DNA from: Microcaldota archaeon
GTDB lineage: Archaea; Micrarchaeota; Micrarchaeia; Micrarchaeales; Micrarchaeaceae
Assembly (NCBI GenBank): GCA_021811435.1
Contig: JAJZOR010000007.1
Location: 1-54,973 of the forward strand
Direction of reading: 5' to 3'
Length of the DNA stretch: 54,973 nucleotides
The notes under the pieces are model-generated. The model did no database searches and had not been told where the DNA came from. It saw only the letters and a program-made list of their open reading frames with translations. The translations under genes were made by a program, and so were the position numbers. Shown here in pieces: positions 37,989-54,769 of this stretch; the first letter of the stretch is position 1; each line of letters starts with the position of its first letter.

Positions 37989-40421
37989 TTAGGTCATGAT
38001 AGGCTGCTGGTTGTCCGAATCAATCAGCTCGACGGAGCCTGAAGCTATGTAAAGCTTAAGCATCTCAGCCTCCTTTGTAGCCGCGTTGTAAAGGTTGGCC
38101 TTGAATTCGTACATGCTCTCGGAGTTTATGAAAGCGAGATAGGTCTTTGAGTTCTGGAATATCGGCATGTTCGCGAACCTGCTTGTCTTCGAGTATATCA
38201 CTATGTAGGCGTGCTCACCATGCTGCGTCGCCACCATGTCGGCCACGTTGCTGGCGTCTATTTCGGTGAATACGTATCCGTGCGAGACGAAGAAGACCCT
38301 GAGTTTCTTGAACGTTGACAGGTAGACTATGTCGTGCTGCCCCTGGCCCAGCCAGGACTGCGGGGCGTAAAGCCCGTCGATTGTTGCCAGCTTGCCTGAT
38401 TCCACCATCGCATCCAGTATGCGGTCTATGTTGTTGAATGTGAGGTTCAGCGGCATGCCTGCGAAGTTTATGTATTTTGATATGGCAAGCTTTATCTCGC
38501 CCTTGGAGAGCGGCATATGGTTCCAGTGGTAGTAGAGGTTCATCTTGTCGAAGACGCTTATTATCTCGGCCGACTTCACCTTGACCTGCGTCTTGTTCTT
38601 GGGCGGCATGTGCGGCACGTCCACATAGAACTCGTCCCTGTTGGGCGGCCTGACGAAAAGCACCATTGCGGCGAGCAGCAGCATGACCGCCAGGATCTCT
38701 ATGTCCTGGGTTGTTATCGGTATGACAGGAGCCGCATTGAATTCTGAGAACCCGAACTCTGTGGAGAGTATGTCGACGGTGAAGTTGGACACGTAATATG
38801 CGGCAGGCTGGCCGCTATGCAACGTATATACCATGGTCCCGTTTGTCAGCGTGCCGTTCTCGGTAGGGTAAGCGTAGTTGCCGTGCGGGTTATACAGGCT
38901 TATCGAATAGTTGACTCCGCTCAGGGGCTGGCCGGCCGAGGTGGCCAGGAAAACGAACCTGCCGGACGAGAAGTTCGCGTTCTGCAGCGTCACAGACAGG
39001 TTGACGTTGAAGAGGCTGTATGCGTAAGGCGCGTTGGAGAAGTTGTCCAGGGCAACTATGTACCTCCCAGCAGGCAATGACACGGCCAGGTATTTGACGA
39101 ACGAGAAGTTGCCGATGGCCTGCGGTATGGAAGGGAGCGCTATGCCCTCCACTTCCGACATGTTCTGGTCGTATATCTGCAGGTGGGGCAGGAGCGACAC
39201 AGGGGTCGCCGAGTGGGTGTATATTTCTATGTCGAAAGGCGTACGCTGGGCGGGTATCACGTAGCTGGGTATCGACATGGAGCCGTTTATGCCGAAATGC
39301 GGCACGTAGTCGACTGAGTAGAATGCGCTGTCTGGCGCGGTCGCGTTGAAGCTGCTGTTGGTATACAGCATTATGCGGCCGTAGTAGTTGCCCAGGAGGC
39401 TGGCCTGGCCGGAGCCGTACTGCACGCCGCTCTGGTTCATAATCACGCCGATATGCCCGCTGAACGCGGTGAAGTTCCTGATGCCGTACGACTCGCTGCC
39501 GGAAGCGTACTCAGGTATCCAGAAGAGCGTAGCTATGGCCTTTGCTATGTCCCTGCCCTCTAAGGTTGCGTTCGGCCATGCGTTGCCGTAATTCGAGAAG
39601 ACGACCAGCGAGCCGCCGTCTATGTTGCGGTAGCTTATGGGACCGTAGAACGTACCCGAGGAGAGGGCATATGTGGGCCTGCTGAACGAGAAGTTGCCGA
39701 ACACCCCGAAGGTGCTTAGGTTCACCTTGGTGGCATTGAATTGCCCGGTGTTGAGGAAGTCTGGTATCGCGCCGGACGGCACTATTATTGAGCCCTGCTC
39801 CAGCATGTGTGAGAAGTCCGCGCCCACGTATATTATGCTCGTGCCCTTGCGCAGCAGGTGCTCTATTGTGGTATTCTGGGTCCCGTTGTAGCCGCTCAGG
39901 AAGACCTGGGGTATGTAGCCGTTAGTCACTATGAGAACGGAGTTGTTTGCTATGTCCTGCAGACTTGCACCCGACACGAAGGACACGGCGCCGGGGTACT
40001 TTATCGCCCCGTATCTAAGCAGGCCGGTTATCAAGGCGCTCGTGACCTGCGTCACGTTGCCGCACTGGTAGCACTCGTTGGTTGTATTGAATATGTATAT
40101 GCTCTGCGGCACGGGGCGCTGCAGTATGCTGGCGTACACGTTTATAGCGGATGCGTTGAGCGAATGCAGGTCCAGCAAAGCGTATGGAATCAATTTGGAG
40201 CCGGAGTCGCCAGACATGAAGCTCTGGTTTATCAGCTGCGCCGAAATGGAGGGTTGCGGGGGCGGGCCGGCCGGCTGCTGCGAAAGGGTGGACTTGTAGG
40301 AGGACAGGACGCCGTTCAGGTAGAACGCGAAGCCGCCGATTATAACGGCTACCGATATCAGGATTATTATTATTTTCTTAGTGCCGCCCCTCATCGATTG
40401 CACCGCTTTCCAAAACGTCAC
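37989..40421 (-). CDS. 810-aa membrane protein with large sequon-rich ectodomain
   Basis: The GTG start at 40421 overlaps the stop of the preceding 49-aa gene (GTGA). TM1 is at about 17-35; about 535 external residues follow with many NxS/T sequons and a CYQCG pair; TM2 is at about 570-590; then some 220 cytoplasmic residues. The cytoplasmic part has a helical, winged-helix-like segment (LSKGEIKLAISKYINFAG ... RILDAMVESGKLATIDGLY). I recognise no family. Being the last gene of the VirB4/VirB6-like block and exposing a glycosylated domain, it is a candidate surface receptor, adhesin or regulator of that machine (inference). Confidence 0.85.
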   Translation of the reverse strand: MTFWKAVQSMRGGTKKIIIILISVAVIIGGFAFYLNGVLSSYKSTLSQQPAGPPPQPSISAQLINQSFMSGDSGSKLIPYALLDLHSLNASAINVYASILQRPVPQSIYIFNTTNECYQCGNVTQVTSALITGLLRYGAIKYPGAVSFVSGASLQDIANNSVLIVTNGYIPQVFLSGYNGTQNTTIEHLLRKGTSIIYVGADFSHMLEQGSIIVPSGAIPDFLNTGQFNATKVNLSTFGVFGNFSFSRPTYALSSGTFYGPISYRNIDGGSLVVFSNYGNAWPNATLEGRDIAKAIATLFWIPEYASGSESYGIRNFTAFSGHIGVIMNQSGVQYGSGQASLLGNYYGRIMLYTNSSFNATAPDSAFYSVDYVPHFGINGSMSIPSYVIPAQRTPFDIEIYTHSATPVSLLPHLQIYDQNMSEVEGIALPSIPQAIGNFSFVKYLAVSLPAGRYIVALDNFSNAPYAYSLFNVNLSVTLQNANFSSGRFVFLATSAGQPLSGVNYSISLYNPHGNYAYPTENGTLTNGTMVYTLHSGQPAAYYVSNFTVDILSTEFGFSEFNAAPVIPITTQDIEILAVMLLLAAMVLFVRPPNRDEFYVDVPHMPPKNKTQVKVKSAEIISVFDKMNLYYHWNHMPLSKGEIKLAISKYINFAGMPLNLTFNNIDRILDAMVESGKLATIDGLYAPQSWLGQGQHDIVYLSTFKKLRVFFVSHGYVFTEIDASNVADMVATQHGEHAYIVIYSKTSRFANMPIFQNSKTYLAFINSESMYEFKANLYNAATKEAEMLKLYIASGSVELIDSDNQQPIMT

Positions 40422-40574: not shown

Positions 40575-41312
40575 CTAACCCCTGAATTCTATGTAGCCGA
40601 GCGACACCATCTTGTTGAGCATCTGCTCCACCCTGGGCGCGACTATCTTGTAGGTCTTGGCGAAATCGTCTATGTCTATGGTGTTGTCGTGCGCCTGTAT
40701 CCACTCCTCTATCATCGACATGAGCGACTCGTCCGAATAGGCCTCTAGCGACTTCAGCCGCGCCCTGAGCTCCTCGTTCTCCGTGGTGAGCTGGGACGCC
40801 CGCACGGTCATGCTCTTGTTGGAGCTTACCAGCTGCGTGCTCATCCTCTTCAGCTCCCTGTACTCGTTGAAAATCGAATCGTAGTTGTTGACCAGGACGC
40901 TGTAGTTCTGCGACAGCGAACCCAACGCATCGTCTATCGACGAGCTGAGCGTCTGGAAGAGCTCGGGGGGGTTCGGCTGGTATATGTCGAGCGTCAGCGA
41001 CAGCACGCTGAGCAGGTTCCTCAGCACGTACAGCTTGCGCAGCTTGGCGCTCGAATCCTGGCCCATCGAGTACTCTATGGTAATCTTGTCCTTCTCGAAA
41101 GTCATCAGGAAGAACAGGAACGGCCTCTTTTGTATGTCCCTGCTCTCCACCCTAAGGACAGCGAGATAATTTGGGGTAGGCTTGAGAGAGAAGACCTGCA
41201 GCTGCGACAGCCTGTCGGCCATGGCCTCGAAGGTGCCCTGCAGCGAGCCCCCTAGTGAGAGCGTGTCAACTTTCGGTTCCAGAACAACGTTTTCGTCGGC
41301 CAACTCAACCAC
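40575..41312 (-). CDS. Coiled-coil protein with C-terminal winged-helix-like end
   Basis: From GTG 41312 the product is 245 aa; TTG 41303 and TTG 41339 are alternatives. The TATA-like TATTTAAAG at 41346-41354 argues for 41312 or 41303. Residues 1-120 form an alpha/beta domain (LAVLRVESRDIQ, FLFFLMTFEKDKITIEYS); 125-195 are a heptad-like coiled coil; the last ~45 residues (DIDDFAKTYKIVAPRVEQMLNKMVSLGYIEF) look like a winged helix. Family unknown. It starts a short transcript with the 49-aa and 810-aa genes, next to the VirB4 block. Confidence 0.75.
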   Translation of the reverse strand: MVELADENVVLEPKVDTLSLGGSLQGTFEAMADRLSQLQVFSLKPTPNYLAVLRVESRDIQKRPFLFFLMTFEKDKITIEYSMGQDSSAKLRKLYVLRNLLSVLSLTLDIYQPNPPELFQTLSSSIDDALGSLSQNYSVLVNNYDSIFNEYRELKRMSTQLVSSNKSMTVRASQLTTENEELRARLKSLEAYSDESLMSMIEEWIQAHDNTIDIDDFAKTYKIVAPRVEQMLNKMVSLGYIEFRG

Positions 41313-41345
41313 TTCCAGGGCGCAAATACTTATTCGCAATCAATT

Positions 41346-41399: not shown

Positions 41400-41822
41400 T
41401 TATGCCGGCTGCTTCCTGCCTTTCGCCGCGGGCGGCTTCGCGCCGGGCGGCAGGTTGACCGCTGGCGTGTAGCTCAGCAGCGACAGCAGGTACATGAATA
41501 TTATTATCGCTATGCCGTAAGCGAAGGCACTGGGCTGGCCGCCGGAGACTATTATCAGCAGCGCGGCGAAGATCACCGCGACGACCACGTACGATACCTG
41601 CTTCTTCACGTAAGTGCTGCGGTACTTGTCGTATTTCGGGTAGCACGCCCTGCATACCACCAGCCTGTAGTTCTTCGCGTTCTTCGTGACGTTCTGCTTG
41701 AAGTACCTCATCACCCGTATCACGCGGTCCTCCCTGACCTCAAGGCCGTCCCTGGCCTCGCCGCAGATTATGCATCTGGACCCGCTTCCTCCGCCGCGGG
41801 GCTTCTTGTTCTTCTTCTCCAT
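41400..41822 (-). CDS. Zinc-ribbon protein with two TM helices
   Basis: The gene encodes 140 aa. A basic N-terminus is followed by CIICGEARDG and, about 40 residues on, CRACYPKYD, forming a four-Cys zinc site. Then come two TM helices (SYVVVAVIFAALLIIVSGG and YGIAIIIFMYLLSLLSY) and a Pro/Lys-rich tail. Both ends are probably cytoplasmic. It follows the 103-aa gene by 6 bp and so belongs to the VirB4 transcript. No family recognised. Confidence 0.75.
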   Translation of the reverse strand: MEKKNKKPRGGGSGSRCIICGEARDGLEVREDRVIRVMRYFKQNVTKNAKNYRLVVCRACYPKYDKYRSTYVKKQVSYVVVAVIFAALLIIVSGGQPSAFAYGIAIIIFMYLLSLLSYTPAVNLPPGAKPPAAKGRKQPA

Positions 41823-41828
41823 CCAAGA

Positions 41829-42140
41829 TCAACTTACATCGACAGTGACGTCGTACAGCCGGCCCGTCTCGGAGTTTATGCGCTCCTCGTCGACGAGGTC
41901 GAACGCCCTCTTTATCGTGATGTCGTCCATGTTCAGGCGCCTGAACACGTTGCTCGTCTCGTCCCTGTCCAGGCCGGCCTTCTCCAGCATGCTCACGAAA
42001 GCTATGATGTTTATGTGCCTGTGGGCCTTCTCCATGCTGGCGAACAGGGCGGCCATGCTCTTCTCCGTCACGCCGAAATTAGTCAGTATGCGCCTGAGCT
42101 CAGGCCTGCTTATCGTGAACGTCTCGGCTGCGGCTGCCAT
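41829..42140 (-). CDS. 103-aa helical protein directly after the VirB4-like gene
   Basis: Soluble and mostly helical, with an EF-hand-like helix-loop-helix look (RPELRRILTNFGVTEKSMAALFASMEKA ... FVSMLEKAGLDRDETSNVFRRLNMDD) but no proper calcium loop. The start lies three nt from the VirB4 stop, and it is 6 bp from the zinc-ribbon gene. It could be a cytoplasmic adaptor for the ATPase (inference from position only). Confidence 0.75.
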   Translation of the reverse strand: MAAAAETFTISRPELRRILTNFGVTEKSMAALFASMEKAHRHINIIAFVSMLEKAGLDRDETSNVFRRLNMDDITIKRAFDLVDEERINSETGRLYDVTVDVS

Positions 42141-42143
42141 CGG

Positions 42144-43655
42144 TCACACACCCACGTAGCCTATTATCCTAGTTATGAGCATGTCCTCTATGCTCAGCGA
42201 CTTCAGGAACGCGACCATGTTCTCGTTGGATATGCCGCCAACGTCCTTAGCCATGCGCAGCATCTCCATCATCTTCATGCTCCTGCCGTTGCCGTCGAAA
42301 TACGCCAGTATGCCGGTTATGCCGTCGCTGGTCACGTTGTAGTCCACCAGCCTGTCCTTCAGCTCCTCCTTCTCGAACTGGTAGTCGCGCTGCATCACCC
42401 CCGCGGCTATCTCCGCCTGGGTCAGGACGTCCGACATGTCTATCGTGTAGACGTAGAGCGGCTCCTCGCCGTGTATCCTCTCGAGTATGAACGTCTCTGG
42501 GAACCTTATCGCGGTCTGGAAGGCCATCTCCACCGCCGCCTGGCCGACCCCGAACTTCCCGATCTCGTCCCTGATGAAGCCCGAGAAGTTCAGCGAGCCC
42601 TGCAGGTAGTCCAGGAACTTCTCGAACTTTATCCTTAGTATGAACGTGGTGCCGACGTTGGAGAAGATCGCCTCGTTTATGTCGGTCGGGTTCTGCGACG
42701 CGACTATGAGGCCGAACTGGTACTTCCTGCCCTCCCTGACTATCATTATCGCGTCGCTCTTCTCGTCGCTGGCTATCTTCCACGCCTCGTCGAGCACTAC
42801 TATGGTCCTGAGCCCCTTGTTCTCGCTCCATCCCTCGCTCCTCATGCGCTCCTTCATGGTCTGCAGTATGAACAGCCCAGCCAGGGCCCTGAACCTCTCG
42901 TCCGGCAGCCCTGAAAGGTCCACATCGACCAAGCCAGATTCGGTGAGCTTGCCGAGGTCTATCGTGCTCTTCCTCGCGAAATAGTCCTCGCCCTCACGCG
43001 CGAACTGCCTGAGCCTGTATATGGTGTTCTCCAGCTCAGCGGGGTATTCGTATGTGCCTTCCTGCAGCTTCTCCTCCAGAAGCGATATGACCTCCTTCAG
43101 CGTCGGGGCCTCCTTGCCGGGCTGCGGCTTTTCCGAAACTATGAACCCGAAGTTGGCGTAGGACTGCTCCAGCGCCTCCTCGGTCAGCCTCTTCTGCTCC
43201 GGGAATTGCGATATGTCCGTGAGTATGTCAAGGGAATTCATTATCTGCTTCGTCCTGTCGAGCGGCTTCATGCCAGACAGGTCCATGATGTTTATGTAAT
43301 CGCCCTTGGCCAGCGAGACCACCACCCCGCCGCTCTGCTTGACCCATGCCTTGTACTCCCCGGCCCAGTCTATTATCACGGCGTTGCTGTTCCATACGTA
43401 GCTTGCCCTTATGAGCAGGGTCTTGACGAAATATGACTTCCCGGAACCCGTTATTCCTACCACGGCTATGTGGGGGTTGGTCAGGTTCAGGAACGACCAG
43501 GTGAACGGCACCTTGAATATCTTGGTGGTGCCTATGTACAGCGACTTGAACGGGTCGGTCATCAGTGCGCTGACCGGAGGCTCCGGCGGCCTCGAGAAGA
43601 ACGCCCTCTTGGCGACCTCGTTGCTCATTATGCTCTGTAGTTTAAGCAGTGTCAC
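42144..43655 (-). CDS. VirB4/HerA-type conjugation ATPase (stand-alone ATPase domain)
   Basis: From GTG 43655, four nt after GGTGG, the product is 503 aa; the frame is open to 43676. Walker A GITGSGKS at 67-74, VIIDWAGEY after it, Walker B VVLDEAWK at 286-293 and ASQNP near 319-323 identify a FtsK/HerA-superfamily motor of the VirB4/TraC or CedB kind. Archaeal VirB4 proteins usually carry an N-terminal domain of 150-250 residues; here only ~60 residues precede Walker A, and two upstream genes look like that missing part. It would power assembly or substrate movement at the membrane. Confidence 0.9.
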   Translation of the reverse strand: MTLLKLQSIMSNEVAKRAFFSRPPEPPVSALMTDPFKSLYIGTTKIFKVPFTWSFLNLTNPHIAVVGITGSGKSYFVKTLLIRASYVWNSNAVIIDWAGEYKAWVKQSGGVVVSLAKGDYINIMDLSGMKPLDRTKQIMNSLDILTDISQFPEQKRLTEEALEQSYANFGFIVSEKPQPGKEAPTLKEVISLLEEKLQEGTYEYPAELENTIYRLRQFAREGEDYFARKSTIDLGKLTESGLVDVDLSGLPDERFRALAGLFILQTMKERMRSEGWSENKGLRTIVVLDEAWKIASDEKSDAIMIVREGRKYQFGLIVASQNPTDINEAIFSNVGTTFILRIKFEKFLDYLQGSLNFSGFIRDEIGKFGVGQAAVEMAFQTAIRFPETFILERIHGEEPLYVYTIDMSDVLTQAEIAAGVMQRDYQFEKEELKDRLVDYNVTSDGITGILAYFDGNGRSMKMMEMLRMAKDVGGISNENMVAFLKSLSIEDMLITRIIGYVGV

Positions 43656-43680: not shown

Positions 43681-44514
43681 TCATGACTGCCTGTCGAAAT
43701 ACGCCGCCAGCTCCTCCAGCTGCGTCGGCAGCGAAAAATTGAACGTGAAAAGCGTGTAGAGCTCCCTGCCCACGACCTTCGTAAGCTGGAGGTCCATGCC
43801 GCTGAACGCCACCTGCAGGCTCTTTATCTGCGCGCTGAGCCTGTCCACCGCGGCCTTCTCCGATATGTCCACCGCGGTCGTCTCGAAGTACATTATCGTG
43901 GCTATCGGCTTCTCCCCCTGGGATATCCTGTCTATCTTCGTCTGGAGCACGCTTATCTTCCTGCGCAGCTCGGTTATGGCCATCTCGTTGGCCTGGGCGC
44001 CCTGCTGCGCCCTCGACAGCTGGAATTCCTGGTACGAACGCTTGCCCTCCAGCTCGTCCCTGACATTCTGTATGTCGAGACCCGATGAGAGCACGTGGAA
44101 CTTGAACGGGAATCCTATGTTCATTATGGCGCGCTCCCAGGTGTCCGGGGCCTGGAGCATCTTCTGGTCCTCCTCCTCCTGCCGCGACTCCAGCTTGAAC
44201 ACGTATGGGAACAGGTTGCCGGTGACGTAGCCGGTAGCGTAGTACAGGCCGCTGACGTTCTTCACTATTGCATCCTGGCTCTTGATTATCTTGTAGTTCC
44301 TCGCTGGCTGGAACGTCACGCCCAGCATGCTGGTGACCATCGGGAATATTATGAAGTCGGCCCAGTTGAGCATCACTATGAACACTATGGCGAGCAGGGA
44401 CAGCGCCATCGCTATCAGGCCGAATATGCCAGTGCCGAACGACGGCAGCGCAAGCACCACTATGAGCGCAAGGAAGCAAGTCAATAGAAGGTACGTTATG
44501 GCCTCTTCGTCCAT
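43681..44514 (-). CDS. Two-TM protein resembling a detached VirB3/VirB4 N-terminal region (paralogue 2)
   Basis: From ATG 44514, four nt after GGTGA, the product is 277 aa; the long upstream frame is a shadow of the next gene. Two TM helices (about 5-58) are followed by a soluble domain: NYKIIKSQDAIVKNVSGLYYATGYVTGNLFPY, then a coiled coil (about 150-190), then IATIMYFETTAVDISEKAAVDRLSAQIKSLQVAFSGM. This order resembles the N-terminal half of VirB4/TraC-like proteins fused to a VirB3-like hairpin. It ends 25 bp before the ATPase start. The match is by eye; structure comparison would decide. Confidence 0.7.
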   Translation of the reverse strand: MDEEAITYLLLTCFLALIVVLALPSFGTGIFGLIAMALSLLAIVFIVMLNWADFIIFPMVTSMLGVTFQPARNYKIIKSQDAIVKNVSGLYYATGYVTGNLFPYVFKLESRQEEEDQKMLQAPDTWERAIMNIGFPFKFHVLSSGLDIQNVRDELEGKRSYQEFQLSRAQQGAQANEMAITELRRKISVLQTKIDRISQGEKPIATIMYFETTAVDISEKAAVDRLSAQIKSLQVAFSGMDLQLTKVVGRELYTLFTFNFSLPTQLEELAAYFDRQS

Positions 44515-45344
44515 CACATCACCTGCTGTATGTTCTTGCTCAGCTGCTCGCTTATGGTAGAGAAAGGTATCAGGTACTCTGGCTCTATGAACTTCAGCAG
44601 CTCCTGGCCGGTCACCACGCTGGGCGTGACGCCGAAAACCGAGCCTATGCCCGACATCACCTCCCTGGCCCTCTGCTGCGCTATGCTGACCGCCTCGAAC
44701 TCCTTGGTGCCCTTGGCCGATATCGCGGCGTAGGTTATGAGCTCGAGGGACTGCGCCTTCTCTATGTTGTCCAGCATGCTGTGCCACATCGAGAGCTTGC
44801 CCTTAGTGCGGTCCAGCTCCTTGGCCTGGCCCTTCTTGTTCGTCAGCGCAACGGCCTCGTTCTCCAGGGAGTTTATCGTGTCCTTCAGCGTCTGTATGTA
44901 GGCGTCCTTGTTCATCACGTAAAGCTCGGAGGTGAAGCGCACGGTATCCCTTGACACTCCGACCAGCCTGCTCACCTGCCTCGAGAAGTCCATCTTCTCG
45001 TTGTCGCTCATCTCGGTGGCGGAGCGATACAGCGGTATCGCGACGTAGACCGTGGCCACGAACGTGTCGCCGTCCTTGTGCATTATGGAGTCGGCCGAAG
45101 GCGATATGGTGTACGGCTCCTCGTCGCTCAGCACTATGTTGTTGCTCCTCTGCTTTATCGCTGGGACGAGCATGTACGTGTAGAACCTGGACGCGAAGGC
45201 CACGACGTCGAAGAGCAGCCCTATGGCGAGCAGTATGAGCTTGACCACGTCCATGACTCCGCCGCCCGGAAGGGCCGCGGAGAGGGCTATGAAGACGGCC
45301 GATACTCCCAGGAAGGCCATGAGCACCAAAATTTTAATCTGCAT
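44514..45344 (-). CDS. Two-TM protein resembling a detached VirB3/VirB4 N-terminal region (paralogue 1)
   Basis: 276 aa with the same plan as the next gene: two TM helices at about 5-55, a short link (NNIVLSDEEPYTISPSADSIMH), a strand-rich part (VATVYVAIPLYR), a coiled coil at about 150-185, and a closing unit (LELITYAAISAKGTKEFEAVSIAQQRAREVMSGIG) that matches the corresponding ATTAVDISEKAAVDRLSAQI part of the paralogue. Its stop overlaps the next ATG (TGATG). It is the first gene after a promoter at 45386-45397. Function inferred from context: membrane platform for the VirB4 ATPase. Confidence 0.7.
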   Translation of the reverse strand: MQIKILVLMAFLGVSAVFIALSAALPGGGVMDVVKLILLAIGLLFDVVAFASRFYTYMLVPAIKQRSNNIVLSDEEPYTISPSADSIMHKDGDTFVATVYVAIPLYRSATEMSDNEKMDFSRQVSRLVGVSRDTVRFTSELYVMNKDAYIQTLKDTINSLENEAVALTNKKGQAKELDRTKGKLSMWHSMLDNIEKAQSLELITYAAISAKGTKEFEAVSIAQQRAREVMSGIGSVFGVTPSVVTGQELLKFIEPEYLIPFSTISEQLSKNIQQVM

Positions 45345-45438: not shown

Positions 45439-46542
45439 TTATATGAACGACCTGAGCCTGCTGCCGGTATACGACACCCCTCCTATGAAATTCGCCAGCT
45501 GGGTTACGAACGAGTATGTCAGTGCTATTATCAGGCCCGGGAAGAACAGTATCATCAGCCAGAACGAGCTCATCGCGGGCTCGACGGTCTGCAGCTGGTA
45601 CTGTATGGGCCCGCCCGGCTGCGTGTTGCTTATCGCGCCGCCGCCTCCGCCCAGCGCCGCTATCTTGGCGCTCGCAGAGCCGAACGTGCTCAGGAGGCCC
45701 GGGGTCGTGAAGTAGAACGCGACCGCGAAGAGGGTAGGCATGATGAGGTAGAACCCTATGCCGAGCGCCATCAGCATCCCGCCGAAAGGCCGCGTGGGCA
45801 GGAACATCCTGAAGAGCACCCCGGGTATCAGGAAAACGGGTATGGCGGCTACGGAGAAGAACACTATAAGGTAGTACTCGGACCAGAGCACCAGTATCGC
45901 GTTGCTGAGCACGCCTGCCATGACCTGGACCGGCTCTATGTACGTTATCTCTAGGCCCTCCTGCTTCGCCGCGTTGATGAACGCTGCGAATGTGGAGAAG
46001 AAGCTCGAATCCGGGTACTCTACGTAGAAGTTTATCGAGGCCGAGTACGCTGCGGTCATGTATACGCCGTACAGCGAGGTGTAGAGGTTCTCGGAAGAGG
46101 TTATGGTGTTTCCTATGAGCCCAAGCGATGTGGCGTATGGGTTGATAGGGCCGACGAGCTCTCCGGGGACCAGGCCGAATATAGTGGCGCAGATGTACAC
46201 GAAAAGCAGCACTATTATCGCGCTGGCGGTCGCCTCGTAGAGCTCGCCGATGCCGAAATTCCTGACCATGTCGCTCCTGGCCGCTATGCCTATCATTATT
46301 ATCAGCGCGGAGACCGCGAACGAGAGCAGCACAGCCATGAACACGAACGGCAGGGCCTGGGCCCATTCGGCAGTTATCTGCTGGTTTATCGGGCAGTACC
46401 ACGGAATGCCGTTCAGCTGTGACGCAAGGCTTGAAGGGTATGATGTGCATGTTGCGGCATGCGGAGCCGAGGGGAGGGCCGCGGCTAGCAGTAACGCGGC
46501 GAAGAGGGCCGCGGCCTTCGGTATGGAGTTCCCTGTTTTCAT
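45439..46542 (-). CDS. VirB6-like polytopic membrane protein, copy 6
   Basis: From ATG 46542, overlapping the previous stop as ATGA, the product is 367 aa. Signal peptide (1-30, ending SAPHAA), then a TM, the amphipathic FGIGELYEATASAII segment and a second TM, an external domain, and about four further TM helices. The family motif is LFRMFLPTRPFGGMLMALGIGFYLIMP, residues about 245-275. A Gly5 stretch (GGGGG) is in the last external loop. It shares this layout with the five genes before it. Proposed role: one of several VirB6/TrbL-like channel or scaffold subunits. Not an enzyme. Confidence 0.75.
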   Translation of the reverse strand: MKTGNSIPKAAALFAALLLAAALPSAPHAATCTSYPSSLASQLNGIPWYCPINQQITAEWAQALPFVFMAVLLSFAVSALIIMIGIAARSDMVRNFGIGELYEATASAIIVLLFVYICATIFGLVPGELVGPINPYATSLGLIGNTITSSENLYTSLYGVYMTAAYSASINFYVEYPDSSFFSTFAAFINAAKQEGLEITYIEPVQVMAGVLSNAILVLWSEYYLIVFFSVAAIPVFLIPGVLFRMFLPTRPFGGMLMALGIGFYLIMPTLFAVAFYFTTPGLLSTFGSASAKIAALGGGGGAISNTQPGGPIQYQLQTVEPAMSSFWLMILFFPGLIIALTYSFVTQLANFIGGVSYTGSRLRSFI

Positions 46543-47669
46543 ATAATGCTGCCTATCATCGACATGAAGTCTACGCGCTCGCCCATGGCGCGCGAGAAGT
46601 CGACTATGAAAGCGTCGAGTATTGCGAAATTGAGGAAAGGTATTATGAGCAAGCCGACTATCAGGTAGCCGGTCTCCAGGACCGCGGAGTCGAACGAGGC
46701 GCAGGGGGACGAAGTGCCTGCGCCTGACACACTTATAGGGCATGAGAGGCCGGAGCCCAGCACCAACGTGTAGAGCGAACTGAAGAGGCCGCCCGCCAGC
46801 GTGGCGAGCGAGGTGGACTGCAGCTGCACGTCTATGAAGCCGTAGCTCATGCTCACCAGCAGCGGATACACCAGTCCCAGCCCGAGGCCGAACGCTATGA
46901 GTGATCCGCCGAACGTCCTCGTGAAGCCGAAGCATCTGGCGACCAGCCCCATCACCATGAAGAGCGACAAGAACAGCAGCGAGCCTGATATGAGTATCAT
47001 CTGGACCTGGTTGAGCACTATCAGAGACAGGAGGCCTGATGCGCCCGTCTCGAGCATGGACTCCATCGAGGCAGGCAGCAGGCTTGCGGTACCAAGCTGC
47101 ACTGACACCGTGCCCTGGCCTATTAACGTCAGCGGCGTGAAGTTAAGGATGAAACCCGGCACCGTGGCAGCAGCTATGAATCCGAGGTAGTATATTGTGG
47201 CGAAGTAGCCTGTGGCCGTTGTCATGAAGGAGCTGAGATCGCATGCCGATAGGTTGTACAGATCATTGACGTTGGACGCTGCGCAGGCTTTAGGAAGCAG
47301 GCCTGCGCCCTGAAAAGCGCCCTGCGGGTTCATGAAAAACATGTACGAGAAGGCGCCGAATATGCCTATGAGGAGGAATGACATTAAGGCCTCGTATATC
47401 TGCATCCTGGACCACGCCCTGGCGTTGCTGCTGCCAGTGGCGCCGCTGAGCATGTAGACGATGGCGGCCACTGTTATTATCAGCAGCACGGCTATGGCCG
47501 CAACGCCCTCCCAGCTGGTTATCTCGACTGGAAGCGTGTACAACAGAACCGGCTGCAGGGCGGGCTGCATGTGATGCGGTACCGCGTGCGAAGCCGCGCC
47601 TGGGGAGGCTGCCAGTAGCGCAGACAGGCAGATGAAGAACAGCGTAAATGCTTTTGCTCCCATTTTCAT
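46539..47669 (-). CDS. VirB6-like polytopic membrane protein, copy 5
   Basis: 376 aa with a signal peptide (1-26), a His/Met-rich start (SHAVPHHMQP), TM1, the connecting segment RAWSRMQIYEALMS and TM2, an external domain with two Cys, and about five more TM helices. Motif: VARCFGFTRTFGGSLIAFGLGLGLVYP. It overlaps both neighbours by 4 nt, so copies 4-6 are translationally coupled. The last external loop has CPISVSGAGTSSPC, a probable disulfide loop. Confidence 0.75.
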   Translation of the reverse strand: MKMGAKAFTLFFICLSALLAASPGAASHAVPHHMQPALQPVLLYTLPVEITSWEGVAAIAVLLIITVAAIVYMLSGATGSSNARAWSRMQIYEALMSFLLIGIFGAFSYMFFMNPQGAFQGAGLLPKACAASNVNDLYNLSACDLSSFMTTATGYFATIYYLGFIAAATVPGFILNFTPLTLIGQGTVSVQLGTASLLPASMESMLETGASGLLSLIVLNQVQMILISGSLLFLSLFMVMGLVARCFGFTRTFGGSLIAFGLGLGLVYPLLVSMSYGFIDVQLQSTSLATLAGGLFSSLYTLVLGSGLSCPISVSGAGTSSPCASFDSAVLETGYLIVGLLIIPFLNFAILDAFIVDFSRAMGERVDFMSMIGSII

Positions 47670-48862
47670 ATCACGTTTTTAAGCATAGTGCTGGCGCTCA
47701 GGCTGGGTGCGCCGAGGAGGTCGCCGACCGCCTCCATGAAATCGTACGCCATTATCAGCGACAGCACGAATGCCATGATTGTGTAGAACACAGGCTCTAT
47801 TATGGTCTGTATGAACAGCTGCACCTCGGTGCCGTTGAGCAGGCTGCCCACCACGCTGACCGCGTTCTGGCCGGTGCCTTTTGCGTTGACTGCCAGGTTC
47901 AGCGCGGAATCCGCCATGCCGGCGGCTTTGCTTTCGAAGTTGTTCAGGAATGCCATGTTGGAACACGCTGATAGCAGGCTGCTGCTTGTTCCGCCCGACG
48001 GGCATATGCTTTCCAGCTTAATCACGTAAGGGCTCAGGTAGTTCGGGTTGTAGAACAGGAAGAAGTGCAGCATTATGGGCAGCAGGATGTAGAAACCTGC
48101 GAACAGGCCTAGCATCGCCCCACCGGCAGCCCTGGTTATCGGGAGCGACCTTAGCACTATCCCTGCGAATAGGAACATCGGGAACATGCCGTATATGACA
48201 GCCAGGAATATTCCAAGGCCGAACAGCAGGCCGATCATGAGGCCGCCTATGTCCGTCAGCGTCTGGAGTATCGAGCTTAGGAATAGGTCGCCGGCGTATG
48301 GGCTGAATGTCATCCCGAATGTGGAGAGCTGGAGATTGAACGTAGTGCCGGCGGCTATGTTTATGAATACGGTGTCCATAGCGAACGCCAGTTCGGGGGC
48401 GAGGAGGCCGGCCGAAGCGGACATGACAGCGTTGCAGTCGTCTATGAATATGTTGCTGTTGAACGTTGGGCCGGCTGCTGCGAACAGGTTGGAGTTGGCG
48501 ATGGAGTTCGTTGCGGAGAACGTGCCGAGGAACACGCCCACCACTATTATGGTTATGGCTATCTCGCCGAATTCCGTCTTGGCGAACCTTGTGAGCTTGT
48601 CTATCGCGAAGGCGTGGCCTATCGCGTAGATTATGCCAGTTACAGCGAACATCAGGGATATTATGGCAAGCGACAGGCCTATGAGCGAGCTGAAGCTCGC
48701 TATGTTAACTGAGGTAGGAGGGGGCGAAGTCGGAGAGTATGCCGAGTATGCCGGGAAAAGCGACCCGCATGAGCCGCTGCCGGCCATTGCGCTGTGCGAC
48801 AGCAGCATGAGCGCCAGCGCAGGGAAAATCAATTTTTTGATGTTGAAGCGGATAATGCGCAT
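47666..48862 (-). CDS. VirB6-like polytopic membrane protein, copy 4
   Basis: From ATG 48862 (GGTGG five nt upstream) the product is 398 aa; GTG 48871 is an alternative. Signal peptide (ending SHSAMAGS), TM1, segment DKLTRFAKTEFGEIAI, TM2, external domain, then about five TM helices with the motif LRSLPITRAAGGAMLGLFAGFYILLP. The C-terminal part has a helix pair ending ALSLIMAYDFMEAVGDLLGAP, which is the re-entrant-like end also seen in copy 1. Confidence 0.75.
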   Translation of the reverse strand: MRIIRFNIKKLIFPALALMLLSHSAMAGSGSCGSLFPAYSAYSPTSPPPTSVNIASFSSLIGLSLAIISLMFAVTGIIYAIGHAFAIDKLTRFAKTEFGEIAITIIVVGVFLGTFSATNSIANSNLFAAAGPTFNSNIFIDDCNAVMSASAGLLAPELAFAMDTVFINIAAGTTFNLQLSTFGMTFSPYAGDLFLSSILQTLTDIGGLMIGLLFGLGIFLAVIYGMFPMFLFAGIVLRSLPITRAAGGAMLGLFAGFYILLPIMLHFFLFYNPNYLSPYVIKLESICPSGGTSSSLLSACSNMAFLNNFESKAAGMADSALNLAVNAKGTGQNAVSVVGSLLNGTEVQLFIQTIIEPVFYTIMAFVLSLIMAYDFMEAVGDLLGAPSLSASTMLKNVI

Positions 48863-48871
48863 GCCTACCAC

Positions 48872-50440
48872 CTACACTAGCTTCGCAAGGCCGGCCAGTT
48901 CCGTATCGCCGCCGAGCAGGCCTGACAGCCCTATGACTGCAGATATAACCACGAGTATGTTTATAATAGGCATGAAATACGCGCTGACCCCGACTACGCC
49001 GTACGCATCGAAAAGGTTGTAAAGCAGCGCTATGGCGGACTGCTGCGAACAGCTCTGGCCCGGCAGCGAGGGCAGGGAGGCGGGCGACGACGACATTAAG
49101 GCCTCGCCTGCGTATGCAGGGGTGAGCGAATAGCCTATAGCAATCAGTTCCGCACCTATTATGCCGCCGGTGGGCCAGCATGAACCGCCGGTGGCAGCGG
49201 TGCTGGTCGCTATGTATGTCATGTTGGGCATCACGAAGAAGTTTATGTCATAGTAGTTGCCCGTGGTGGGCGAGTTCTCCGGTATCTGCGTTATGCCGTT
49301 GTATCCGTACGCGAACGAGTTGAACGTGAAGCTGGGCGGCGGAGAGCCCGATTGGGATGGGGCGACCTGCTGGCAGCCGGATGGCTGCGACAGGACTGGG
49401 CCGGATGGCGTGGAGATGTAGTACGGCACTCCTGGGCACAGGTTGACGTATTCCAGGCCGTATATTATCGGCATGAAGACCACGGCCCCTATGGCTATCG
49501 CTATGAAGAGCCCTCCTATGGCCCTGGTGAACGGCGTTGCCCTGAGCACTATGCCTACGAAAAGCATGTAGGGCCAGATGAAGAGCAGCGCTATTATGAA
49601 TACGAACTGCGCGACGTACGACTCGAACGCAAGCGACAGGAGGTCGCCTAGCGGCGAGTATGACTGGAATATCATGTCATAGCCGGCGTACGGCTGGAAC
49701 GAAATCTTGAGGTCGAAGTTTATCGTGCCGGCGCCGGGAAGCAGGCAGGCCTCGAGGTTCGACCAGCATACCGGTTCCACGAACGGGGTGAAGCTGTCGA
49801 GGAACCCCATGTACGTGTCTATCGTGAAAAGCGCGTTGAGGTTGGTGAGCGTCTGGTTCGTCAGGTTCGCTATGAGCACCGCGGATGTCGCGAGGGGGTA
49901 GTCTATCTGTCCAGTGAAGGACGTACTAGGGTCGTAGACCATGTTGCAGATTCCGGGGAACGACGACGTGCCGAAAAGCAGGTTGTATGGGGGCAGGGGG
50001 TTGCTGGGAGCCTTGGTGCTCCTGCTGCTGTAGGACGTGCCGGCTATGAAATTGCCGGAGAACAGCGTGAGCTGCGAACCTGCCGATATGGTGTTGCACG
50101 TCTGGTACATCGCCTGGGGGCTGAGCCCGCTTGCGCTGAACGACGACATGTACAGCGACGCGAAGAATGCGAGCGCGCCCACGACCACGGCCACTATGAT
50201 CGAGGTGCCTATCAGCTGGATGAACTCGCCCCTGGCGTTCGCCTTTATCTTCTGGTCGTTCATCACGTAGCCGATCATGTACCATACCGCCACTATTATG
50301 GCGTCTATGAGCAGCGCCACGACTATGAACTCTGCAAGGTTAGTCTGCGCGGCGTGCACGCTAGTGGGCACCGCGCCCCGGACCTCCTGGACGTAGGAGC
50401 TTATCGCGCTTTGAAGTACGAGGTTCGCTAGTGCCGACAT
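48872..50440 (-). CDS. VirB6-like polytopic membrane protein, copy 3 (largest)
   Basis: 522 aa, the longest copy, and the only one without a cleavable signal peptide (starts MSALANLVLQSAISSYVQEV). TM1 and TM2 surround KIKANARGEFIQLIG. A long external domain of about 160 residues has three Cys. The motif is LRATPFTRAIGGLFIAIAIGAVVFMP. A second external domain (about 355-470) is rich in Ser, Pro, Gly and Tyr with three to four Cys. It is 11 bp from copy 2 upstream and directly against copy 4 downstream. Confidence 0.75.
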   Translation of the reverse strand: MSALANLVLQSAISSYVQEVRGAVPTSVHAAQTNLAEFIVVALLIDAIIVAVWYMIGYVMNDQKIKANARGEFIQLIGTSIIVAVVVGALAFFASLYMSSFSASGLSPQAMYQTCNTISAGSQLTLFSGNFIAGTSYSSRSTKAPSNPLPPYNLLFGTSSFPGICNMVYDPSTSFTGQIDYPLATSAVLIANLTNQTLTNLNALFTIDTYMGFLDSFTPFVEPVCWSNLEACLLPGAGTINFDLKISFQPYAGYDMIFQSYSPLGDLLSLAFESYVAQFVFIIALLFIWPYMLFVGIVLRATPFTRAIGGLFIAIAIGAVVFMPIIYGLEYVNLCPGVPYYISTPSGPVLSQPSGCQQVAPSQSGSPPPSFTFNSFAYGYNGITQIPENSPTTGNYYDINFFVMPNMTYIATSTAATGGSCWPTGGIIGAELIAIGYSLTPAYAGEALMSSSPASLPSLPGQSCSQQSAIALLYNLFDAYGVVGVSAYFMPIINILVVISAVIGLSGLLGGDTELAGLAKLV

Positions 50441-50451
50441 CAGTTAACCAC

Positions 50452-51705
50452 CTACACGTTGCTCCAGAACGACGACGCGCCGTCCAGCCCTCCGTTCAGC
50501 GCCTTCGCGAGCCCGACGGCGAAGCCCATCATCACCATCAGGTCTAGCGCGAATAGCACGATGGATGTGAAAAGGAACATCGCTACCTCGTTCGCTATGT
50601 TCAGCACGTTGCTGACAACCAGCGCGGGGTCTATGGCCGAGGACAGTATCTGCGTGAACTCGCCAAAGCTCAGCGAAGTTATGGAAAGCCCTGACATCTG
50701 CACGCTGGTCGGAGTAGAGCCGCCGGTGCTTGTGAAGAAGCTCGACTCCTGTATGTTTGGCAGCGAGTATGCGGAGTCAAGGTACGACCAGCCGGGATTG
50801 CACCACGTAGACTTCGAGCACGGGGTGAATATCCAGGACAGCATGGTCGGATTGTACGCAACCATAGTCGGATATATCAGATATGCAGCTATGGCTATGG
50901 CAAGGACGGAATTCGCGGCGGTCCTGAGCCCTGCGCCAGTGAAGGCAAATGAGCGCATGATGAGCGCTATAGGGAGCACGACGAAAAACGCAGAGCCCTG
51001 TATGAGCGGTATAAGCAGGTACTGTATGAACATGGCGCCCATGGCCAGCATCATTATGGGCGTGAACACGATCGTGAGGAGGTCGCTCATGATTGCATAC
51101 GGCATGCCGAGGTCGCCTGCGAAGATCGGCGTGACTGAGAACAGGCCGAAGTTGAGGAACGTTTTAGATATGAAAGAGGCCACGTTTGGCGTTATCACTG
51201 AGGAATAGACGCTCTGCCCCACGCCGCTGTAAAGCCTGGAGTCTATCGCGTAGGTTATCGACGTGGAGTAGATGTTGTTCAGCATCTTCAATCCGGTATT
51301 GAAGGTCAGGTTGCCGACGTAAAAGTCCGCCGATGCGAACGGGTTGCAGGCGTACGCGCCCGTAGAACCTATGGTAGCGGAGAATTCGCTGACCGTTATG
51401 GTCGCGCCCAGCAGTATCACTATTATGATCACGCTTATGAGGTTCTGGTTCAGCTCGGTGACAACAAGGGCCTTTATCTTCGCGCTCGATGCGGTGGGCA
51501 TCAGGTTGCTCAAGATGTACACCACGGCTATGACGGCGAAGCTTATCATTATCACAGTGAAGTTTATCGAAAGCCATGAAGTGTTGTAAGGGTTCGTTGT
51601 TATGGGGCATCCGGAATCTGCGGATGCCTGCGCGGGCAGCGACGCGAAAATTACCAGTGCTAGGAAGAAAGACGCAGGTATGAGATTAGAACGGCTGCCA
51701 AGCAT
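50452..51705 (-). CDS. VirB6-like polytopic membrane protein, copy 2
   Basis: 417 aa. Signal peptide (ending SLPAQASA), TM1 and TM2 around SAKIKALVVTELNQNLI, an external domain, then the family motif in its most diverged form (LIMRSFAFTGAGLRTAANSVLAIAIAAYLIYP, where the GG pair has become AA). The later external loop contains CSKSTWC, a likely disulfide. It starts 12 bp after copy 1. Confidence 0.75.
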   Translation of the reverse strand: MLGSRSNLIPASFFLALVIFASLPAQASADSGCPITTNPYNTSWLSINFTVIMISFAVIAVVYILSNLMPTASSAKIKALVVTELNQNLISVIIIVILLGATITVSEFSATIGSTGAYACNPFASADFYVGNLTFNTGLKMLNNIYSTSITYAIDSRLYSGVGQSVYSSVITPNVASFISKTFLNFGLFSVTPIFAGDLGMPYAIMSDLLTIVFTPIMMLAMGAMFIQYLLIPLIQGSAFFVVLPIALIMRSFAFTGAGLRTAANSVLAIAIAAYLIYPTMVAYNPTMLSWIFTPCSKSTWCNPGWSYLDSAYSLPNIQESSFFTSTGGSTPTSVQMSGLSITSLSFGEFTQILSSAIDPALVVSNVLNIANEVAMFLFTSIVLFALDLMVMMGFAVGLAKALNGGLDGASSFWSNV

Positions 51706-51717
51706 TTTGCATCACGT

Positions 51718-53016
51718 CTACGCGAGTTTCATCTTGCCGAACCCTAGCCTTATGGTGCCCCCGAGCGCGGCGGCCACGTCCTTTATTATCGTGTATCCTA
51801 TTATAAAGTCGATTATAAGGAGGACGAACTGCAGCACAGAGTTCAGTATCACTGAAGTGACCAGGTCCGCTACCGGGTATATCGACGTGCTTACGAACGT
51901 GGACATTGCGGCGTCGTAGCCTATACTGAATCCGGGGGAGGTGGAGAAGGTATTGGTAATCAGGCCGCCTATCGCCTCGATCGCTCCTATGAAAGCCTGG
52001 CCGATGATGCCTCCCCATGACGATTGCGCCTGCTGGGCGGTGATGGTCTGGGACGTGCACTGCGTCTGCACCGTGCCGCCGCAGTATATCTGCTGGCCCA
52101 GCACGAAGTCGCTGACCGGGACGTTCAGCACAACGAACAGCATAGGGAACACGAGCGAGACCCCGATGCCCAATGCTATGAAAGTGCCTCCGAAGCTCCT
52201 CAGGAAAGGTATGGCCCTGAACACTACGCCCACAGGTATGAAGAGGCCGAAGCCCAGCTCCACTATCTGGATGAACAGGTCGGCCAGCATCTGCAGCACG
52301 ATCAACGACGGCAGGACCACCAGGGTGGCGGCGTTGCTGAGGAGCGACGAGGATGAGGTCGTGTAGTCCGAGTCTATTATGTTGCTTATCAGAAGCGGGC
52401 CCGTGGAGCCGAAATGCGCGTTCACCGTGCCGGCCGGCGGCAGGGTCGGTATAGGCGGGTACGGGAACCAGACGCTGTAATGGAAGCTCTTGATGAAGTC
52501 GACGCCTGACGCGGCGCCGAACAGGATCGTAAGGGAGTTCTCCGCGTACGCGGACGAGACGTTCAGGTAGTTGCCGGCGACGTAGTAAAGGCCGCCAAGG
52601 TTCTGCGACACCTGGCCGCTGAACCCGAGCGATGAGGGCGCGCTGCCGGTGCCTGCGAGCGACGAAGCTATCGAGCTGAATATGACCAGCACCGCGAATA
52701 TGGCCGCGACAAGCAGCATGGTCTTCACGGTCTCCCAGAGCTCGTTCCTGTACCACCCCTTTAGGGAGCTCAGCTGGAACACCTCGCCCAGCATGTATGC
52801 CAGAGCCACCAGGGAGAAGGACAGCATTATGCCTATCACCCATAGCGGCACCGCAGAGGCGATGCAGTCGCCAATCAAGGCGTTTGCGCCCGTTATTATG
52901 CAAAAGGGCGGATTCAGATTGTACGCGGCGGCCGCCTGGCTGAAGAAGGACGACAGAAGCAGGGAGGACGCAAGCATAAGCATGATGCGCAGGCGCAGTG
53001 CGGCTCCCGTTAGCAT
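51718..53016 (-). CDS. VirB6-like polytopic membrane protein, copy 1
   Basis: 432 aa. Signal peptide (1-31), two Cys in the first loop, TM1, KGWYRNELWETVKT, TM2, external domain, central TM helices with the motif VFRAIPFLRSFGGTFIALGIGVSLVFP, a further external loop with CGGTVQTQC, and a C-terminal TM ending IIDFIIGYTIIKDVAAALGG. This is the first of the six paralogues after the 253-aa gene. All six share TM - basic linker with a Glu - TM - external domain - arginine/TR-GG/P motif. Confidence 0.75.
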   Translation of the reverse strand: MLTGAALRLRIMLMLASSLLLSSFFSQAAAAYNLNPPFCIITGANALIGDCIASAVPLWVIGIMLSFSLVALAYMLGEVFQLSSLKGWYRNELWETVKTMLLVAAIFAVLVIFSSIASSLAGTGSAPSSLGFSGQVSQNLGGLYYVAGNYLNVSSAYAENSLTILFGAASGVDFIKSFHYSVWFPYPPIPTLPPAGTVNAHFGSTGPLLISNIIDSDYTTSSSSLLSNAATLVVLPSLIVLQMLADLFIQIVELGFGLFIPVGVVFRAIPFLRSFGGTFIALGIGVSLVFPMLFVVLNVPVSDFVLGQQIYCGGTVQTQCTSQTITAQQAQSSWGGIIGQAFIGAIEAIGGLITNTFSTSPGFSIGYDAAMSTFVSTSIYPVADLVTSVILNSVLQFVLLIIDFIIGYTIIKDVAAALGGTIRLGFGKMKLA

Positions 53017-53047: not shown

Positions 53048-53809
53048 TTAGTGTTTCAGCATCGCGAATCTTTTCATGTACGATTCGCTCTGCAGCACTA
53101 TCAGGAAAGGGAGCAGGAACACGGTGTCAACGATCAGCTCCACTATGAATGCGGCGTAGGCGTAGCCGCCGGGCAGTGCGCTGCCAATAGCTATGAATAT
53201 GAAGTCCAGGGCGGTGGTGAGGATTATGGCCACTGCGAGCCACAGCAGGAAGTAATCGAACCTCTTGAAGAAGAACCTGAAGCTCGCTGACATTGCGCGC
53301 AGGGTCCTGTTCTCGTCTATTATTATCGATGCAGGGGCGTAGAAGAAGAACGGCGCCATCACAAGCCCGGCGAGCGCGGTTATTATGCCGGACACTGTTG
53401 CGGAACCGGTCACTACGAAGCTCAGCACGTCAGCGAGCACTATCACCGCCTCCATCATCAACAGAACCACGAAGACCCTGCTCGTGTACTTCTCAAGGCC
53501 CCTGAACACTTCCTGCCTTATCTTGGCGTAGGTCCTGCTGTGCTTTACCACTATGTTCACGGCCACCATGGCGAAGCTCAGGAACAGCAGGGAGAAGAAT
53601 ATCGAGGCGACTATGACAGCCGTGTTCAGTATGTTGAGATTCGTGAAGACGCTTGCCGTCCTTATGTATATGCCGCCTATGTCGGTATAGGTCGGGAAGG
53701 CGGCGAAGAGCGGTATGAAGACCGCGATGACGAACGATATCGACGATATGAGCAGCAGCTGGATGTGGTTTGTGTAAGTCTCGAGCGCGTTGTGCAGCAA
53801 GTCAGCCAT
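53048..53809 (-). CDS. Polytopic membrane protein (about six TM), first gene of the cluster
   Basis: 253 aa with six hydrophobic helices and no signal peptide. The segment FFYAPASIIIDENRTLRAMSASFRFFFKRF followed by TM helices is typical of archaeal multi-pass proteins of the DUF7847/glycerophosphodiester-phosphodiesterase membrane-domain type; that match is by eye. It differs from the six VirB6-like copies and lacks their motif. Its TATA box (AATATTTATC, about 53844-53853) is the only promoter before the six copies, so it probably leads their transcript. Confidence 0.7.
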   Translation of the reverse strand: MADLLHNALETYTNHIQLLLISSISFVIAVFIPLFAAFPTYTDIGGIYIRTASVFTNLNILNTAVIVASIFFSLLFLSFAMVAVNIVVKHSRTYAKIRQEVFRGLEKYTSRVFVVLLMMEAVIVLADVLSFVVTGSATVSGIITALAGLVMAPFFFYAPASIIIDENRTLRAMSASFRFFFKRFDYFLLWLAVAIILTTALDFIFIAIGSALPGGYAYAAFIVELIVDTVFLLPFLIVLQSESYMKRFAMLKH

Positions 53810-53843: not shown

Positions 53844-53853
53844 GATAAATATT
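53844..53853 (-). promoter_or_regulatory. Promoter of the six-paralogue operon
   Basis: AATATTTATC on the minus strand, about 40 nt before the 253-aa gene ATG at 53809; GTGGT lies before the ATG. From here the genes run without a clear promoter to 45439, about 8.4 kb. Confidence 0.45.
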
Positions 53854-53980
53854 CAAGTGGTATGAAGCAATTTCTCAAGCGAACGCCTCTTCAAGCTCTA
53901 GCCAAAAGATAATTGGAATAGAAGGGTTCAAGAAAGAACTGAAGTAAGATGGAAGTATATTCAAGTTCTTCAATCTACCC

Positions 53981-54444
53981 TCAAGATGGAGTCGGAGTAA
54001 AATTTAAAATTGTTAAGTTAGTCGTTTGCAGCACTGTTACTGTGTGATTCCACCATCCAAGCGACTCATTGTAGCTTACTGTTAGATTTCCGACTACTTC
54101 TGGACCAATTGTGAGTGGATAATAAAATATGAGTTTTTGCCCTTTTGTGACCCTAATTTCGCACAAAGGCACGTTTTTCTGCGCACAAGAATACGGCCTA
54201 GCTATGCCAGAATTAGTGCTGTTATTAGTTCTTCCTGCAAATAAGATAATCGTATTTGTTGCATTATCATAAGTCCATATTACATTGCCGTCTATTATCG
54301 ATATGCCTTTTGGCGGGGGAGGTTGATACAGTGTACCATAATTTTTTTTTGGATAGTAGGCTGTAAAAGTAAAAATGCAATTATCGCTACTGCCATTATA
54401 AAAATAGCTATAACTAATACCATAATTTTATTATAGCCAAACAT
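53981..54444 (-). pseudogene. Surface protein gene broken (or phase-varied) at an A9 tract
   Basis: ATG 54444 begins a protein with one TM helix (MVLVIAIFIMAVAIIAFLLL). The frame runs into nine A (T9 on the plus strand, 54342-54350) and stops shortly after. In the next frame, downstream of the tract, the sequence continues for about 120 codons (YQPPPPKGISIIDGNVIWTY ... VTVLQTTNLTILNFTPTPS) to a stop at 53981. Ten A would restore a ~154-aa anchored, sequon-bearing exported protein. This may be a real pseudogene, a phase-variable switch, or a consensus error. It lies between the large cluster and an insertion-element end. Confidence 0.65.
54342..54350 (+). repeat. T9 homopolymer (A9 on the coding strand)
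   Basis: The only tract of this length inside a coding region in the window, placed just after the membrane anchor of the surface-protein gene. One more base restores the frame. Such tracts slip during replication and in sequencing. Confidence 0.6.
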
Positions 54445-54453
54445 TATTTTCGC

Positions 54454-54760: not shown

Positions 54761-54769
54761 AATTGTTGC

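Follow-up and report, generated by a model that had tools for sequence, protein, structure and literature searches.

A fixed set of six VirB6-like genes in a putative type IV secretion-like locus of Micrarchaeota

What is formed by six related membrane proteins that are encoded side by side in a Micrarchaeota genome? The question is raised by a stretch of 54,973 nucleotides (hereafter the window), contig 22 of a 25-contig, 1.1-Mb Micrarchaeota genome (assembly GCA_021811435.1), in which six open reading frames (ORFs) occupy 45439-53016 of the minus strand, arranged head to tail. A sequence-only reading had described them as six adjacent VirB6-like genes of 432, 417, 522, 398, 376 and 367 amino acids (aa) with one common architecture, and the ORFs were confirmed at that place. 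Here, it is considered rather probable that the locus encodes a chromosomal, reduced machine resembling a type IV secretion system (T4SS), with the six VirB6-like subunits, c1 to c6, acting as one fixed hetero-oligomeric platform or channel. The six genes are listed below.

51718..53016 (-): c1, VirB6-like paralogue 1, 432 aa; position-1 group on the tree
50452..51705 (-): c2, VirB6-like paralogue 2, 417 aa; most divergent copy, without the TR..GG motif; single clade, support 99
48872..50440 (-): c3, VirB6-like paralogue 3, 522 aa; bears an external domain; without an N-terminal signal-like segment, as had been read from the sequence
47666..48862 (-): c4, VirB6-like paralogue 4, 398 aa counted from ATG
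46539..47669 (-): c5, VirB6-like paralogue 5, 376 aa
45439..46542 (-): c6, VirB6-like paralogue 6, 367 aa; its AlphaFold model retrieves R388 TrwI/VirB6 first in the PDB

Six homologous genes in one operon

Ortholog profiles, drawn from about 37-40 loci per copy and mostly from orthologues of one family, were compared with hhalign. All 15 pairs of c1-c6 profiles were homologous (probability 96.0-99.4, E-values of 4e-9 to 8e-22), while the controls, the neighbouring protein up and the coiled-coil p1, reached at most 3.1 against the six. In most pairs two stretches are similar, the part made of two transmembrane (TM) segments with the loop between them and the region of the central motif; when c2 is compared with c3 or with c5, only the TM-loop-TM part is. 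Identity between copies is about 25-30%, or undetectable by single-sequence search, and scans of c1-c6 against Pfam and NCBIfam gave nothing meaningful for any copy. The shared motif as first described contained one residue too many and matched none of the six; the corrected pattern, R-x3-[P/F/I]-[T/L]-R-x2-GG, is present in five of the six window copies, not in copy 2, and only 4 of the 7552 unrelated ORFs in these loci carry it. In a deep alignment the Glu proposed as conserved in the linker, E48 of A6, is kept at 90% or more, and G216, R220, R226 and P244 around the motif are invariant.

The copies in the window lie about 0-12 base pairs (bp) apart or overlap by 4 bp, and across 99 complete hexads the intergenic gaps have a median of 1 bp, 88% of them being no longer than 20 bp. 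Furthermore, the gene order up-c1-c2-c3-c4-c5-c6-p1-p2-ATPase-d1 is kept in almost every operon sampled from the family itself and from a second family of the order. Matches to c5 are present in 50 of 60 genomes of its family. The external domain of c3 is bigger in several other orders, in which the enlarged c3 (sometimes copy 2, 4 or 5) measures about 700-1400 aa (L203 5691-9122, L208 4424-8650, L162 1506-4835).

Number, order and age of the set

In about 17 families of the class, 102 arrays were both distinct and untruncated, and exactly six genes were counted in 99 of them; a few of these 99 are no more than 0.5 kb away from a contig end (L199, L201, L166, L176), and one has a disturbed frame (L162). 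The three others are reading-frame effects, namely a split c2 (L045), c5 in two frames (L177) and an overlapping ORF at c4 (L034). Arrays that seemed to hold five or seven genes were traced to overlapping long ORFs (L034, L066), the split c2 (L045) and the split c5 (L177), and a seeming extra copy in L035, L054, L072 and L159 was the small pilin gene, miscounted. The array was also found in single-contig assemblies (G031, G008, G009, G025, G062).

The order of the hexad is fixed across almost the whole phylum. In a tree of 126 proteins from 21 arrays, whose long branches leave details unsure, gene position (1-6) requires 7 label changes, with a possible minimum of 5 and a mean of 81.3 for shuffled labels. 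Positions 2, 3 and 6 each form one side of a single branch, with support of 99, 84 and 97, respectively. The positions correspond to six ancient orthologous groups, clearly older than the sampled families.

Nine genomes carry two separate complete hexads (G120, G121, G122, G136, G138, G140, G151, G173, G186; locus pairs L198/L199, L200/L201, L202/L203, L204/L205, L206/L207, L208/L209, L210/L211, L212/L213 and L215/L216). Since both hexads are complete, duplication or gain acted on the six genes as one set. Only one main ATPase was seen in at least three of these genomes (G121, G173, G186), in which two alternative VirB6 sets may share one motor.

Motor, pilin and a one-copy sister system

The genes following c6 were compared with known T4SS parts.

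44514..45344 (-): p1, 276 aa; two TM helices and a VirB4 N-terminal-domain fold in its model (VirB3/VirB4N-like)
43681..44517 (-): p2, 278 aa; paralogue of p1, TM-anchored, VirB4N-like by homology
42144..43655 (-): VirB4/HerA-superfamily ATPase without an N-terminal domain of its own, about 503 aa (longer ORF to 43676)

An AlphaFold2 model of c6 (predicted local distance difference test, pLDDT, 76.5; predicted template modelling score, pTM, 0.67) was searched against 350,542 PDB chains. R388 TrwI/VirB6 appeared at ranks 1, 3, 4 and 5, with probabilities of 0.80-0.99, so that the structure predicted for a single copy led first to VirB6. For the p1 model (pLDDT 77, pTM 0.51), ranks 1-7 were all entries containing R388 TrwK/VirB4, with probabilities of 0.97-1.00 and E-values of 0.005-0.05; the idea that p1 and p2 combine a VirB4 N-domain with VirB3-like helices had been noted down ahead of this search. 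The two proteins are paralogues (hhalign, 96.8%). Members of the p1/p2 family gave scattered chance hits and no VirB4N in Pfam, and hhalign against single R388 VirB3 and VirB4 sequences gave nothing. The ATPase carries DUF87, AAA_10 and TraG P-loop domains above the Pfam cut-offs, and its NCBIfam matches to CedD, CedB and VirB4 fall below the full-length cut-offs. It also matches the HerA family, and by sequence alone it is as near to HerA as to VirB4. It is the N-terminal domain of VirB4 that separates VirB4 from HerA. Because the p1 model shows a VirB4N-like fold and the ATPase begins at its nucleotide-binding domain, VirB4 is probably split over three genes, p1 and p2 providing membrane-anchored N-domains and the ATPase the C-terminal half.

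A pilin-type gene of 104-180 aa, with a signal-like N-terminus and two hydrophobic helices flanking a short basic loop, precedes up in almost every operon sampled, with two or three copies in tandem in some of them, and lies between up and c1 in a third family. Pilins of a related family match T4SS_pilin (PF18895, 2.8e-5) and TrbC/VirB2 (PF04956, 2.5e-4) just under the curated cut-offs. Moreover, in profile comparison the pilin aligns with the N-terminal parts of two of the six, c2 (83%), whose N-terminal half resembles the pilin profile, and c4 (69%). In the genome of the window the pilin gene is found on another contig (G000:C19:10654-11118; L197 1507-1974), where it adjoins a carbamoyltransferase-like gene; in the close relative G057 the pilin gene adjoins the operon. 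The contig end upstream of up (53850-54973) contains no pilin, only small ORFs without obvious relatives, which may reflect a local rearrangement or a contig-end problem.

Hexad and motor also occur together at a distance. All 20 genomes of other orders with a hexad have the ATPase (448-764 bits) and the N-domain protein p, and none of the 11 genomes from hexad-lacking families has either; the naive odds of this co-occurrence are 1.2e-8, with shared descent ignored. Hexad, N-domain protein and ATPase are jointly absent from families f10, f13, f15 and f22 and from most of f17 (G131, G139, G142, G144, G145, G150, G160, G168, G174, G185, G196). In five genomes (G012, G063, G081, G086, G094) the hexad is seemingly absent and the ATPase present; contigs end beside the ATPase in G012 and G094, so that the absence is at least partly an assembly gap.

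A sister locus with one copy of each part (L222-L230; for example L223 4777-8070 and L224 5148-8392) encodes a pilin, one VirB6-like protein of about 315-360 aa, one VirB4N-like protein and one ATPase, and is present in many hexad genomes as well as in some without a detected hexad, such as G147. The simplest reading is that the ancestral plan comprised one of each, and that the hexad system multiplied VirB6 to six and, in the best-studied families, VirB4N to two.

The remaining genes of the operon are as follows.

53048..53809 (-): up, polytopic membrane protein, 253 aa; placed between pilin and c1 in related operons; no homology to c1-c6
41829..42140 (-): conserved, small helical protein, 103 aa; weak matches of its relatives to the ATPase profile
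41400..41822 (-): 140-aa protein with hydrophobic segments; kept at the same spot in other ATPase loci
40575..41339 (-): d1, coiled-coil protein, about 245 aa; conserved beside the ATPase in all orders examined
37989..40421 (-): membrane protein with a large external domain, 810 aa; relatives of about 750-880 aa with two TM helices in the same place

Relatives of the 103-aa protein score 16-41 bits against the ATPase profile, and by eye it is like a detached copy of the C-terminal helical domain of the ATPase. In several orders giant proteins closely follow the hexad, most of them about 1300-1900 aa long and the largest 2807 aa, with 1-5 TM segments (L161 10696-19035, L164 10332-20000, L237 1673-10770, L243 2652-11580, L249 6770-15193); they are candidate adhesins or tip proteins, and a Pfam scan of one of them (L161 10696-15129) found no match. 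Outside the operon the genes are housekeeping ones (TopoVI-B, KH, EF-1 alpha). The locus therefore belongs to the chromosomal core rather than to a plasmid or provirus, and a mobile element was rejected on the same flanking genes. VirB8, 9, 10 and 11, a coupling protein and a relaxase were not seen among the scanned neighbours, the genome as a whole not having been searched for them. Outer-membrane T4SS parts are not expected in archaea.

Known systems, rival explanations and meaning

Among known systems, Ced and Ted of Sulfolobales and Thermoproteales (CedA/CedE/CedA1/CedB/CedD; TedA/TedB/TedC) are likewise archaeal, chromosomal, reduced T4SS with VirB2-, VirB6- and VirB4-type parts. The CedA1 pilin also resembles the N-terminal part of the VirB6-like CedA (PMC9905601), and the work of VirB4 is shared out there too, CedB and CedD carrying different parts of the VirB4 N-domain (PMC11868833, PMC9905601). 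Likened by description, Ced differs in having one VirB6-like protein, CedA, or two with its paralogue CedE in Sulfolobales (PMC11868833), against six here; in CedB and CedD the N-domain is fused to the ATPase, whereas p1 and p2 are membrane proteins separate from a single ATPase. The rvh (vir homologue) T4SS of Rickettsiales comes closer in number: Anaplasmataceae have 4 and Rickettsiaceae 5 diverged virB6 paralogues in tandem, some of them bearing large external extensions, beside virB3 and virB4 in host-dependent cells, with synteny kept across an order (PMC7648143). However, rvh is bacterial and has outer-membrane components, while the present set has six members and no match to PF04610, and the duplication was likely independent of that in Rickettsiales. 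The R388 Trw system (TrwI/VirB6, TrwK/VirB4, TrwM/VirB3), which supplied the best PDB fold matches of c6 and p1, differs in its single VirB6 as a homopentamer (PMC9259494), its VirB4 in one chain, its VirB5, VirB8-11 and relaxase, and its plasmid location. Patescibacteria and nanohaloarchaea similarly combine small, host-dependent genomes with chromosomal VirB4-like ATPases and other T4SS parts; the portions of these reports that were consulted mention no tandem VirB6 set (PMC12102498, PMC10266531), and the nanohaloarchaeal system is described there as having a giant VirB4-linked adhesin. In the paper on Ca. Mancarchaeum (Mia14), type IV pili are reported and VirB proteins are not mentioned (PMC5498576). 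The earlier claim that no system of this form had been described holds in part: no account of exactly six VirB6-like paralogues, phylum-wide, in an archaeon was found in the open-licence PMC papers searched, but the 4-5 VirB6 of Rickettsiales and CedA with CedE are partial precedents. New features are that the system is archaeal, that the count is strictly six, that the order is ancient and fixed, that the set duplicates as a whole, that the membrane-anchored VirB4 N-domains are separate proteins, and that a one-copy sister exists.

The machine proposed here would consist of one or more VirB2-like pilins, a split VirB4 (p1, p2 and the separate ATPase) and the six VirB6-like subunits. One each of c1-c6 would be located in the cytoplasmic membrane above the ATPase. 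The set would go back to one VirB6 gene that was duplicated in a one-copy system resembling the sister locus still present today, and would afterwards have been kept, or duplicated, only as a whole. Such a platform would feed pilin subunits into a filament at the cell surface and serve as the base of a cell-to-cell conduit, with the externally enlarged members, mainly c3, facing the partner cell. The cargo might be DNA, as in Ced and Ted, or the transfer might be an exchange with a host archaeon, the two appearing about equally likely with DNA slightly ahead. The hetero-oligomer is favoured because of the exact number, the fixed order, the ancient orthologous groups and the duplication of whole hexads. 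These also fit the sequence-only view that six different copies mean more than copy number; the hetero-oligomer itself is inferred, like the pilus and the transfer. A hetero-hexameric VirB6 ring, with six unequal subunits in fixed positions that evolved from a homo-oligomer like that of the sister system and form an asymmetric base of the pilus or host conduit, is a more tentative proposal that we hold to be possible. The Mcm2-7 and Rpt1-6 rings evolved in this way from homo-hexamers. A base of unequal parts would go well with the one-subunit helical symmetry reported for archaeal conjugation-type pili, for which helical rise and twist are published per single subunit (PMC9905601).

Several results weigh against this interpretation. 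The fold matches are weak in absolute terms, both for c6 (best E-value 0.03, TM scores 0.27-0.35) and for p1 (E-value 0.005, TM scores 0.30-0.33), and both models were built on 32-33 sequences. Sequence profiles gave no link to bacterial VirB6, hhalign yielding no match between the six and a ten-member VirB6 profile; c6 and 31 orthologues did not match PF04610 (TrbL/VirB6), to which the genome itself has one unrelated match elsewhere, below cut-off, and a PDB sequence-profile search with c6 found nothing. Since the sequence profiles, of VirB6 and of R388 VirB3 and VirB4, gave nothing, it is the comparison of predicted folds that supports the VirB6 and VirB4N identities, and the name VirB6-like stands on fold and operon company (VirB4N fold, ATPase, pilin), not on sequence. 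Copy 2 reads R-x3-F-T-G-x-G-L-R at the motif site and so lacks the shared motif. In most other orders the hexad is not beside the ATPase, being apart from a locus of pilin, p, ATPase, 140-aa, d1 and 850-aa genes. Finally, R388 VirB6 is a membrane-anchored pentamer, thought to be the site of pilin assembly, in an inner-membrane complex that is hexameric, and six paralogues are not predicted by this known stoichiometry (PMC9259494).

Among the rival explanations, the copies could act as separate homo-oligomeric machines or parts that share motor and pilus, one being the core channel and the others surface receptors or adhesins for different partners. The external domains do vary strongly by copy and lineage (the c3 protein reaches about 1400 aa, the others about 1100), evolution is much faster in the channel proteins than in the ATPase (identity in the family sample 33-78% for c6, 25-70% for c2 and 67-93% for the ATPase), a single main ATPase is possible in the two-hexad genomes G121, G173 and G186, and the extended VirB6-3 and VirB6-4 of Anaplasma are surface-exposed (PMC7648143). 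Optional receptors should, however, vary in number and order, and the six are always six, in one order and duplicated as a set, so that we regard this explanation as rather unlikely. Less probable still is an unrelated polytopic family, transporter or envelope scaffold, with a VirB6-like look and a HerA-type ATPase serving another task. This would fit the lack of meaningful Pfam, NCBIfam and VirB6 profile matches and an ATPase sequence no nearer to VirB4 than to HerA, but it leaves unaccounted for that two genes of the operon, c6 and p1, independently retrieve two components of the R388 machine, that a two-helix pilin-like gene is linked, and that the same four-part set recurs in one-copy form. 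Ordinary recent tandem amplification or an assembly artefact, to which the tandem arrangement alone might point, can practically be dismissed: the copies are ancient and orthologous across families, and the array occurs in single-contig assemblies and in the complete genome of the cultured Ca. Micrarchaeum strain A_DKE.

Micrarchaeota are tiny, host-dependent archaea, and the way in which DPANN archaea of such minute size make contact with their hosts is still being worked out. In one DPANN co-culture, that of ARM-1, cryo-electron tomography revealed intercellular tubes that arise in the host and dock on a barrel of the symbiont that was not identified, nor were the symbiont-side genes (PMC11329633); that this barrel is related to the machine described here is speculation. 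The lifestyle of those Micrarchaeota that have neither hexad, N-domain protein nor ATPase, compared with that of the others, could hint at its function. The machine described here is widespread in Micrarchaeota and carries the core parts of a pilus-making T4SS. With an invariant VirB6 set of six parts and, in the same phylum, a natural version with one, both the stoichiometry of VirB6 and the way hetero-oligomeric channels evolve can be tested directly.

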